Shown here one piece after another: positions 59,700 to 62,216 of a DNA stretch of 64,000 nt. The position numbers and the translations under genes were made by a program. Below the pieces are notes generated by a model. The model had not been told where the DNA came from. It did not search any database and saw only the letters and a list, made by a program, of their open reading frames with translations. Position 1 is the first letter of the stretch; each line of letters starts with the position of its first letter. Origin of the DNA: Sinomonas mesophila (GTDB lineage Bacteria > Actinomycetota > Actinomycetes > Actinomycetales > Micrococcaceae); assembly GCF_001999765.1 (NCBI RefSeq), contig NZ_KV908328.1, forward strand, positions 22,780-86,779. The letters run 5' to 3'.

Positions 59700-60284
59700 A
59701 GTGCGCTGACCTCGTTGGTGACTAGCCGCGGTTGCGGCATCGAATGCGGAGCGTTGACGCCCGCGTGGCGGAGGATGCCCGACGCTGGGCTGTGGACGTG
59801 CTAGTTGCTGGGGTGGTGCAGTCAGCTCGACATTCGACAGCAGCACATTGCCCGGATGGCGGGTGAGCTTCCGGCGCGGTCGGCGGCGACAGGTGCTGCT
59901 GAGTCCTTGTTCACATTGACGAGTGTGTCTCGTAACAATGCCTACAAGCAAGTAACAATGCCGGATTTGTCTCACATTGTGAGATATGGGCGGGCGATGT
60001 GACGATCATCACGATTCGGCAGAAGGGCCTTGCGCTCTGCATTTTTCGACGCTAGGGCCTTTTTTGACTCATCGGTCGAAGATTATTCGATTGCGCTTGG
60101 CGGGACAGGCGGACGACTGCGGGGTCCCATTCAGTCTCACCATGTGGACGTGACTGGACGACCGCCTGTTCAATGCTGGCCGGCTGGACGCGGCCCCAAG
60201 GATTGATGTATCAGAAACGGCGCTCGAGCGAATCCGCTGTTATCCAAATGTGACTTGCCGTGATCAATCCGTTACCGTTGACGG
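59700..60284. other. long AT-richer intergenic region with palindrome
   Basis: About 590 bp between the divergent winged-helix gene and the riboswitch, noticeably lower in GC than the rest. A palindrome TCTCACA-T-TGTGAGA is at 59970-59984 and the words GTAACAATGCC occur twice nearby. No gene of coding character was found, despite short open frames. It probably holds the promoters of both genes and a regulator site. Confidence 0.55.
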
Positions 60285-60492
60285 GTGCCCGCGCCACGGC
60301 GGGCTCCCCCGGGTACCGTCCGCCGAGCTCTGCCAACGGCCCGAGAGGACAGATCAGGCAGAGACGGAGGACCCAGGTCCGGCCGCGCGCCCCGCCCCCC
60401 AGGGATGCGTCGTGGCCTCGGGGTGAAGCCCATGCCGACGGCTGGGCCGGATGACTCTCATCCGAACCCGACAGCTAACTTCGCAGGCGCCA
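60285..60492 (+). promoter_or_regulatory. c-di-AMP riboswitch (ydaO/yuaA type)
   Basis: Matches the actinobacterial consensus at several conserved positions: TCCGCCGAGCTCTGCC at 60319-60334, GGAGGACCCAGG near 60366-60377, GGGGTGAAGCC at 60420-60430 and CCGAACCCGACAGCTAACT at 60462-60480. These are the signature stretches also known from the Streptomyces rpfA leader. It ends 18 bases before the start codon. Binding of c-di-AMP turns such genes off. An ORF that begins inside this region is not real. Confidence 0.88.
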
Positions 60493-60509
60493 ACGAGAGG
60501 CCCATTCGC

Positions 60510-61298
60510 TTGAGCAAGTCCCCCTTCCGCGCTGCCGCGCGCCCTCAGGGCCGCCGCAGCGCCACGCGAAGCACGCACACCCAGACGTCCCTTTCCCGCA
60601 TCGCCGCATCCGCCGGCGCCACCCCGGGCAGCCCCGTCGAGCGACTCGGCCACCGCAGCGCCGCCGTCGCCCTCTCCCTGGGGCTCATCGCCCTGGCAGG
60701 GGGCGGCGCGGTGGCGACGACGGCCGGCCCCGACCTCGAGTCGACGTCCATGGTCGAGGCAGCCGCCGAGGGCACGGGCACCGCACATGCCGCACTCACC
60801 ACCGACGCCCAGGCCCGGGTGAAGGCCGAGGAGGTCCGTTCCGAGGCCGCCGCAGCGGCGGCCGCCGCGGAGGCCGCGCGCCAGGCCGCCGCGGCCCGTG
60901 CCGCCGAGGAGGCGCGCAAGGCGGAGGAGCTCCGCGCCGCGGAGGAGGCACGGAAGGCCGAGGAGGCCAAGGCGGCCGCGCAGCCGGTCGACGATCCGAC
61001 CGCCGCCAAGGCCTACGCAGCGTCCCGGCTCGCTGCCTATGGCTGGAGCCAGGATCAGATGAGCGCCCTCGAGATCCTCTGGACCAAGGAATCGGGCTGG
61101 CGCACGACCGCTACCAACCCCACGAGCGGCGCGTACGGCATCGTCCAGTCCCTGCCGGCGACCAAGATGTCCTCCGTCGGTGCGGACTGGCAGACCAACT
61201 TCCGCACGCAGATCGAGTGGGGACTGGACTACATCAAGGAGCGGTACGGCTCGCCGTCGAACGCCCTCGGGTTCCACTACGCCAACAACTGGTACTGA
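60510..61298 (+). CDS. secreted transglycosylase-like (SLT/Rpf-type) protein
   Basis: Protein of 262 residues starting at a TTG with AGAGG nine bases upstream, directly after the riboswitch. A basic head and a hydrophobic signal segment (AVALSLGLIALAGGGAV, about 54-70) lead into an Ala/Glu coiled coil to about residue 165. The C-terminal domain, SQDQMSALEILWTKESGWRT then NPTSGAYGIVQSLPA, has the Glu and GAYGIVQ pattern of SLT lytic transglycosylases found in actinobacteria. It is likely to cleave peptidoglycan during growth or resuscitation, with expression set by c-di-AMP. Confidence 0.87.
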   Translation: MSKSPFRAAARPQGRRSATRSTHTQTSLSRIAASAGATPGSPVERLGHRSAAVALSLGLIALAGGGAVATTAGPDLESTSMVEAAAEGTGTAHAALTTDAQARVKAEEVRSEAAAAAAAAEAARQAAAARAAEEARKAEELRAAEEARKAEEAKAAAQPVDDPTAAKAYAASRLAAYGWSQDQMSALEILWTKESGWRTTATNPTSGAYGIVQSLPATKMSSVGADWQTNFRTQIEWGLDYIKERYGSPSNALGFHYANNWY

Positions 61299-61475
61299 GC
61301 CCCCTTCTTCCCCCCTTCCCCCCCCCCCGCCGTCGCGGCACGCCCTGCGGACACCCGTCCCATGGCGTGCCGCGACGCAGCGTTTAATCCGGGCGCCCGC
61401 ACTAGGCTTTGCCTGCACAGCTCGTTCACAGCTGCGGCTCAGGCTCGGACCACGACTGCACGGGAGGCTGGATCC

Positions 61476-62216
61476 ATGGCAACCCCCTACTCCACGAACA
61501 ACCTGCCCGCCCTGACCCACCCGGACGGGACGCCGATCCGGGCCCTCGTGGCCGACGACGAGCCGAGCCTCGCCGAACTCATGAGCATGGGCCTCCGCAT
61601 GGCGGGCTGGAGCGTCCTCGTGGCGGGCGACGGCCCCTCGGCGGTCAAGGCCGCACGCGACTTCCGCCCCGACGTGCTGGTGCTCGACATCATGATGCCG
61701 GGGTTCGACGGCGTCGAGGTCCTCACCCGCGTCCGCCAGTTCCTTCCGGAGGTCCCCGCGCTGTTCCTCACCGCGAAGGACGCCGTCGAGGACCGGATCA
61801 CGGGACTCGCCGCGGGGGGCGACGACTACGTCGCGAAGCCGTTCAGCATGGAGGAGGTCATGCTCCGGCTCCATCGCCTCGTCCAGCGCTCGGGCGTCGC
61901 TGCGCAGGACGACGCCGAGCTCGTCGTCGGCGACCTCGTGCTCAACACCGACACGCGCGGGGTCACGCGGGGCGGCGAGGACATCCAGCTCACGGCGACC
62001 CAGTTCGAGCTCCTGCGCTATCTCATGGAGAACCCGCGCCGCGTGGTCAGCAAGGCCCAGATCCTCGACCGTGTGTGGCAGTACGACTTCGGCGGGCAAG
62101 CCAACATCGTCGAGCTGTACATCTCCTACCTGCGCAAGAAGATCGACGTCGACCGCGCGCCCATGATCCACACGGTGCGCGGCGCCGGCTACGTCATCAA
62201 GCCCGCGGAGGGGTGA
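61476..62216 (+). CDS. OmpR-family response regulator
   Basis: Protein of 246 residues. The receiver domain has VADDEPSLAELM, phosphorylation site Asp71 in LVLDIMMPGFDG, the Thr in LFLTAKD and Lys121 in DDYVAKPF. The winged helix shows VGDLVLNTDTRGVTRGGEDI and TQFELLRYLMENPRRVVSKA, with VRGAGYVIKP at the end. An added 20-residue head precedes the fold. GGGAGG is eight bases from the ATG. It overlaps or abuts the kinase gene downstream (GTGA). Confidence 0.95.
   Translation: MATPYSTNNLPALTHPDGTPIRALVADDEPSLAELMSMGLRMAGWSVLVAGDGPSAVKAARDFRPDVLVLDIMMPGFDGVEVLTRVRQFLPEVPALFLTAKDAVEDRITGLAAGGDDYVAKPFSMEEVMLRLHRLVQRSGVAAQDDAELVVGDLVLNTDTRGVTRGGEDIQLTATQFELLRYLMENPRRVVSKAQILDRVWQYDFGGQANIVELYISYLRKKIDVDRAPMIHTVRGAGYVIKPAEG

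Follow-up and report, generated by a model that had tools for sequence, protein, structure and literature searches.

In Sinomonas mesophila, a c-di-AMP riboswitch of the ydaO/yuaA class precedes a TTG-started gene for a protein with a lysozyme-like domain, and one strand of the riboswitch pseudoknot is at the same time the Shine-Dalgarno (SD) sequence of that gene. From our point of view, the arrangement is best explained by an ordinary c-di-AMP riboswitch of this class whose most likely point of action is translation, a reading in which we place good confidence. The analysis thereby offers a comparative case, with a precisely placed short helix, on the question whether actinobacterial c-di-AMP switches act on translation or on transcription, and it places an AggPromo-type enzyme among the wall hydrolases under c-di-AMP switch control. 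The known picture is left unchanged. The arrangement has been conserved among relatives and is for the most part ordinary, and published work on Actinobacteria has already connected c-di-AMP with wall hydrolases (excerpts of PMC9960051, PMC10117811 and PMC8079986).

Aptamer, leader and start of the target gene

Within the stretch of 64,000 nucleotides that was analysed (the window), the covariance model RF00379 matches positions 60314-60504 of the forward strand over its full length (model positions 1-134 of 134) with 52.0 bits, above the curated gathering score of 38 bits (E = 3.5e-9, window-wide on both strands). The element thus belongs to the ydaO/yuaA class, as the original prediction had proposed together with the TTG-started gene behind it. 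One outcome that would have counted against that prediction, an insignificant covariance score, did not occur. The loop strand CTCTC (60455-60459, +) is complementary to GAGAG at 60495-60499, which gives the loop-to-3'-tail pseudoknot of RF00379 with five pairs in the window, and loop and tail covary in relatives on one side of the helix centre. Its 3' strand lies within GAGAGG (60495-60500, +), a match to the anti-SD sequence, so that pseudoknot strand and SD are united in one element; the AGAGG named originally was right, the conserved element being GAGAGG. The TTG at 60510-60512 begins 9 nt after it, and the leader hence has the layout of a ribosome binding site (RBS)-occluding switch, in which the SD is an aptamer helix strand properly spaced from the start codon.

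The gene most likely begins at this TTG and extends to 61298 on the stop side (60510-61298, +), encoding a protein of 262 amino acids with a hydrophobic segment, an Ala/Glu/Arg-rich stretch and a C-terminal AggPromo (lysozyme-like) domain. The TTG start, already part of the original prediction, is supported because homologues share its position: an in-frame TTG, GTG or ATG is found at a comparable place, 14-23 nt past the aptamer core, in 77 of 79 core-bearing relatives, L193 and L224 being the two exceptions. The earlier range had to be shortened, as its first position, 60285, is the GTG of a mechanical open reading frame (ORF) that opens ahead of the aptamer and runs across it, and the gene more likely starts at 60510.

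Folding of 60290-60530 as a single sequence gave an unexceptional stability (z -0.87; 47 of 200 shuffles were equally or more stable), and the minimum-energy structure obtained in this way differs from the aptamer. A terminator scan of 59900-61500 returned a single site; it precedes the aptamer, and the interval from aptamer to gene is free of terminator-like sites. Just 3' of the gene and before two-component system genes, positions 61332-61376 hold a perfect inverted repeat of 13 bp whose loop measures 19 nt; it is possibly a terminator, the loop exceeding the limit of the scan.

Comparative evidence for pairing over the ribosome site

The comparison drew on 5 loci of the S. mesophila genome and 28 others of the genus (33 of the 38 genus matches), on the 30 family and 28 phylum-search best matches, and on a further 60 family and 20 phylum-search regions that were hand-picked among the matches listed, with weak aptamers under-sampled; L088 was left out, its core motif being misplaced. 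After duplicates had been merged, 104 distinct loci were available from the own genome (5), the genus (15) and the family (84), and the counts given for them stem from relatives that are not independent of each other. The start codon lies 3-14 nt after the SD in 101 of these loci, with a median of 8 in each group, and pseudoknot and SD overlap by at least 3 nt in 99. Control windows placed within 120 nt before the core contained a start codon opening an ORF of 70 or more amino acids in 76 of 1248 cases, each being 9 nt wide as compared to the 12 positions of the tested start range. Beyond the family, such a start was present in 4/4 loci of the order sample (overlap in 3/4) and 16/18 of the class sample (overlap in 12/18), and in just 8 of the 23 loci of the phylum sample outside the class.

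When loops were paired with their own tails, the mean helix score was 5.67, compared to 4.85 for swapped tails (sd 0.08, maximum 5.11 of 500; 104 loci). Broken down by group, the result was less clear for the small groups, as the swaps reached the own mean in 10/300 cases for the own genome, 4/300 for the genus and 13/300 for the order, and in 0/300 for family, class and phylum alike. This test, in which the pairing was re-optimised at every swap, is fairer than a position-wise permutation, for which the register had been chosen in favour of pairing and which consequently gives counts that are too kind.

The position-wise analysis covered 101 distinct loci, 100 of them anchored (all but L093). 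To one side of the central CTC/GAG, three successive positions use all four Watson-Crick pair types and are Watson-Crick paired in 91, 70 and 57 of the 100 anchored loci; a fourth position on this side pairs inconsistently. Pairing on the other side is not conserved, with 22-23 of 100 loci showing Watson-Crick pairs at each of three positions, two of which pair no better than shuffled. The pseudoknot helix is thus short, because pairing is conserved on only one side of the centre. Taken over these loci, selection probably acts on the pairing over the ribosome site.

The riboswitch in genome, genus and family

The S. mesophila genome (4.0 Mb, 47 contigs) holds five RF00379 copies, which precede the target gene, three M23 peptidase genes and one NlpC/P60 gene (assigned by Pfam, the target by NCBIfam), and one DAC (diadenylate cyclase) domain was detected in it. 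Since the four further copies all stand before M23 or NlpC/P60 genes, it is probable that the five switches tune a small set of wall hydrolases together. On contig 14, two of the c-di-AMP riboswitches (L004 and L001) are separated by about 1 kb; an M23 gene follows one and the NlpC/P60 gene the other, and close pairs of this kind occur in at least 10 family genomes.

All 15 genus genomes searched contain RF00379, with 38 matches in total, and in each of them one copy precedes the target orthologue (L002 and 14 others, among the 33 matches examined). The model was further found in 97 of 120 family genomes and in 28 of the 149 genomes of the phylum sample. The targets at 90 family loci were M23 (40) and NlpC (38) proteins and, in six cases, proteins with the AggPromo domain; four were unassigned and two loci had no ORF. 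An orthologue survey that kept 80 loci out of 383 relatives found, and that overlaps the genus genome set, placed the aptamer core upstream of the target orthologue in 79 of 80 relatives, and Rfam confirmed RF00379 at 19 of the 20 loci submitted. In the exception, Arthrobacter horti (L234), the gene is kept without the aptamer, no RF00379 match being obtained there even at E<=1. In the records examined of Sinomonas, Arthrobacter, Pseudarthrobacter and Paenarthrobacter, the AggPromo-type enzyme and its switch are conserved together. At four loci outside the class (L074, L079, L155 and L158), the switch stands before an ORF of 91-94 amino acids that is alike among the four.

Target protein

The C-terminal residues 183-262 (61056-61295, +) match the NCBIfam family NF052397, AggPromo_Cterm, the C-terminal domain of aggregation-promoting factors, with 115.4 bits against a curated cut-off of 40 (E = 1.2e-33), and the domain is accordingly a member of this family. 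The search for Pfam-A families in the target gave none at E<=1, Rpf and SLT families included, and a PDB search by sequence gave no meaningful solved structure. An SLT/Rpf-type domain, as proposed before, was hence not recovered by Pfam, and what stood of that claim is the NF052397 match together with a predicted fold that is modestly lytic-transglycosylase-like; on the same two grounds, the description of the target as transglycosylase-like and distinct from classical Rpf holds.

The AlphaFold2 model of residues 150-262, built from 25 aligned rows, reached a pLDDT of 91.1 and a pTM of 0.83. In the Foldseek comparison, rows 1-26 are lytic transglycosylases, including Cj0843, Slt70, MltE, MltF and Slt, with a chitinase, a lysozyme, a phage core protein and a cellulase among the lower-ranked ones; the best match has an E-value of 0.027 at a probability of 1.00, with no row at E <= 0.001. 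VIA-align gave Z-scores of up to 7.8, where values under 8 may, according to the tool, mean merely a common arrangement, and its rows also include lysozymes and alpha-lactalbumins. Glu194 (61089-61091, +), the candidate catalytic acid, is invariant in 20 close and 25 diverse rows, the latter reaching down to 23% identity. It corresponds to model residue 45 in the last turn of helix 32-46, a predicted position that would fit a lysozyme-type catalytic acid.

As the hydrophobic segment around residues 50-70 would be in keeping with secretion, we infer from predicted fold and conservation that the product is a secreted lysozyme- or lytic-transglycosylase-like peptidoglycan enzyme. One could also imagine that the domain is lysozyme-like but non-catalytic and belongs to a wall-binding or aggregation protein, in which case the switch would control adhesion and not wall cutting. 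The family name, aggregation-promoting factor, speaks for this, as do the missing Pfam family and the lack of a meaningful solved structure by sequence search; however, the invariance of Glu194 in the 25 diverse rows (lowest identity 23%), its place at the end of a helix in the model and the 26 lytic transglycosylases at the head of the structural matches argue against it, and we regard it as unlikely. The same genome encodes, on contig 9 (L283), another AggPromo-domain protein, which has a long N-terminal part, and no RF00379 match was found within 3.2 kb around its gene.

Mode of action

Ligand binding stabilises the fold of ydaO-class aptamers. Since the SD is the 3' strand of the pseudoknot, binding of c-di-AMP would hide it, and translational OFF control is therefore the simplest reading. 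At high levels, c-di-AMP, presumably supplied by the one DAC-domain protein detected in the genome, would bind and stabilise aptamer and pseudoknot; the pseudoknot would then cover the ribosome site and leave the TTG gene untranslated. At low levels the ribosome site would open.

One of the closest known systems is the nlpC switch of Corynebacterium glutamicum, an OFF switch assigned by its authors to the level of translation, for which they suggest, as a hypothesis in their discussion, a pseudoknot of CTCC with GGAG that covers the ribosome site (PMC9960051). Both switches are of the same class, control a wall hydrolase and have no canonical terminator, whereas the C. glutamicum target is an NlpC/P60 protein and the pairing, hypothetical there, is backed by covariation in the related family considered here. 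The C. glutamicum riboswitch also lowered the transcript irrespective of the c-di-AMP level (excerpt of PMC9960051). In Streptomyces, the same class likewise precedes wall hydrolase genes (PMC10117811; PMC8079986, both in excerpt); a gene annotated as 'Transglycosylase' is among the ydaO-type leader targets of S. lividans (PMC8079986), and the same article cites a proposal of RBS blocking in S. coelicolor. The S. coelicolor rpfA gene, however, encodes a resuscitation-promoting factor, unlike the target described here (PMC10117811; PMC8079986). The underlying leader studies (St-Onge 2015/2017, Haiser 2009, Block 2010) are those cited in PMC10117811 and PMC8079986. Outside the Actinobacteria, the B. 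subtilis ydaO switch acts by transcription termination (excerpt of PMC9960051). A review counts ydaO among the docking switches, a group whose translational members occlude the RBS (excerpt of PMC10907184). The ydaO crystal construct of RNA-Puzzle 12, which is not an actinobacterial leader, contains by our own reading of the printed sequence a loop-to-tail complement, CUCCUUCG...CGAAGGAG, and one group modelled its pseudoknot with five or six pairs (excerpt of PMC5393176).

Two other accounts of the locus have to be considered. The switch might act mainly on transcription, with ligand binding leading to a Rho-dependent or otherwise non-canonical polymerase stop in the leader or early gene. An untranslated message would also be open to Rho, which favours such a mechanism. 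Further support comes from rpfA of S. coelicolor, for which premature transcription termination or attenuation is described (PMC9960051; PMC10117811, in excerpt). However, merely 9 nt separate SD and start codon, the interval between aptamer and gene holds no terminator-like site, SD and pseudoknot overlap in 99 of the 104 distinct loci, and the C. glutamicum reporter transcript was equal in strains with low and high c-di-AMP (excerpt of PMC9960051), so that a mainly transcriptional switch appears distinctly unlikely to us. By analogy to the S. coelicolor rpfA and C. glutamicum reports, a transcriptional effect alongside the translational one is possible.

The second account would see in the aptamer a relic, or a sensor of another ligand, and in the spacing of GAGAGG that of an ordinary SD. 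GAGAGG is indeed a good SD by itself, and the pseudoknot has just five pairs in the window. Nevertheless, 79 of 80 orthologues have the conserved core upstream, covariation links the loop to bases next to the SD, which would be needless for an SD alone, and the genome does contain a DAC domain; we consider a relic or a different ligand very improbable. Translational OFF control by an ordinary c-di-AMP riboswitch hence remains our preferred reading.

With regard to earlier work on such switches in this family, a literature search combining c-di-AMP, riboswitch and Arthrobacter found none among the papers covered, and the match for Sinomonas and riboswitch concerns ANTAR RNAs, as judged from its listing. 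Among the matches listed, none was by its title about a c-di-AMP riboswitch in Micrococcaceae, which is no proof of absence.

Short open reading frames behind a Sinomonas switch

In six of the 15 genus genomes (L015, L016, L026, L027, L028 and L032), one switch stands before an ORF that measures 73-98 codons and has no catalytic part, whereas in the remaining nine the same switch precedes an intact NlpC/P60 gene. The short ORFs keep the first and last codons of the NlpC/P60 gene, and their frame runs to the shared end; in the one of the six that was analysed with Pfam (L015), no family was found. The next gene begins 97-103 nt past the stop codon of the short ORF in all six cases, and the one scanned, again that of L015, matches NlpC/P60 (E = 2.6e-12). 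The genus search gave no RF00379 match before this next gene. With dN/dS values of 0.47-1.42 (15 pairs), amino-acid change in the short ORFs is near neutral. The short ORF may be a decaying remnant, or it may be a leader ORF whose translation would be gated by c-di-AMP and affect the next gene.

Going one step further, we tentatively suggest, with considerable reservation, that the family possesses a switch without a separable expression platform, in which the SD would be the pseudoknot strand and c-di-AMP and ribosome binding would be mutually exclusive across the wall-hydrolase set, and that in one Sinomonas group this switch would gate a short non-catalytic leader ORF before an intact hydrolase gene.

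Repeats upstream of the aptamers

GTAAC-type repeats are present upstream of the aptamer in L005 (GTAACGAATTTGTAAC) and also in L003 and L004, and are possibly a regulator box. The two-box form, which we take to be MtrA-like, was rejected as a common element, as it is rare (1/5 own, 0/27 genus, 1/90 family and 0/47 other distinct regions); in shuffled sequences it occurred in 6 of 8450. GTAAC half-sites are commoner upstream than in the coding control (73 vs 21, family), two sets that also differ in composition.
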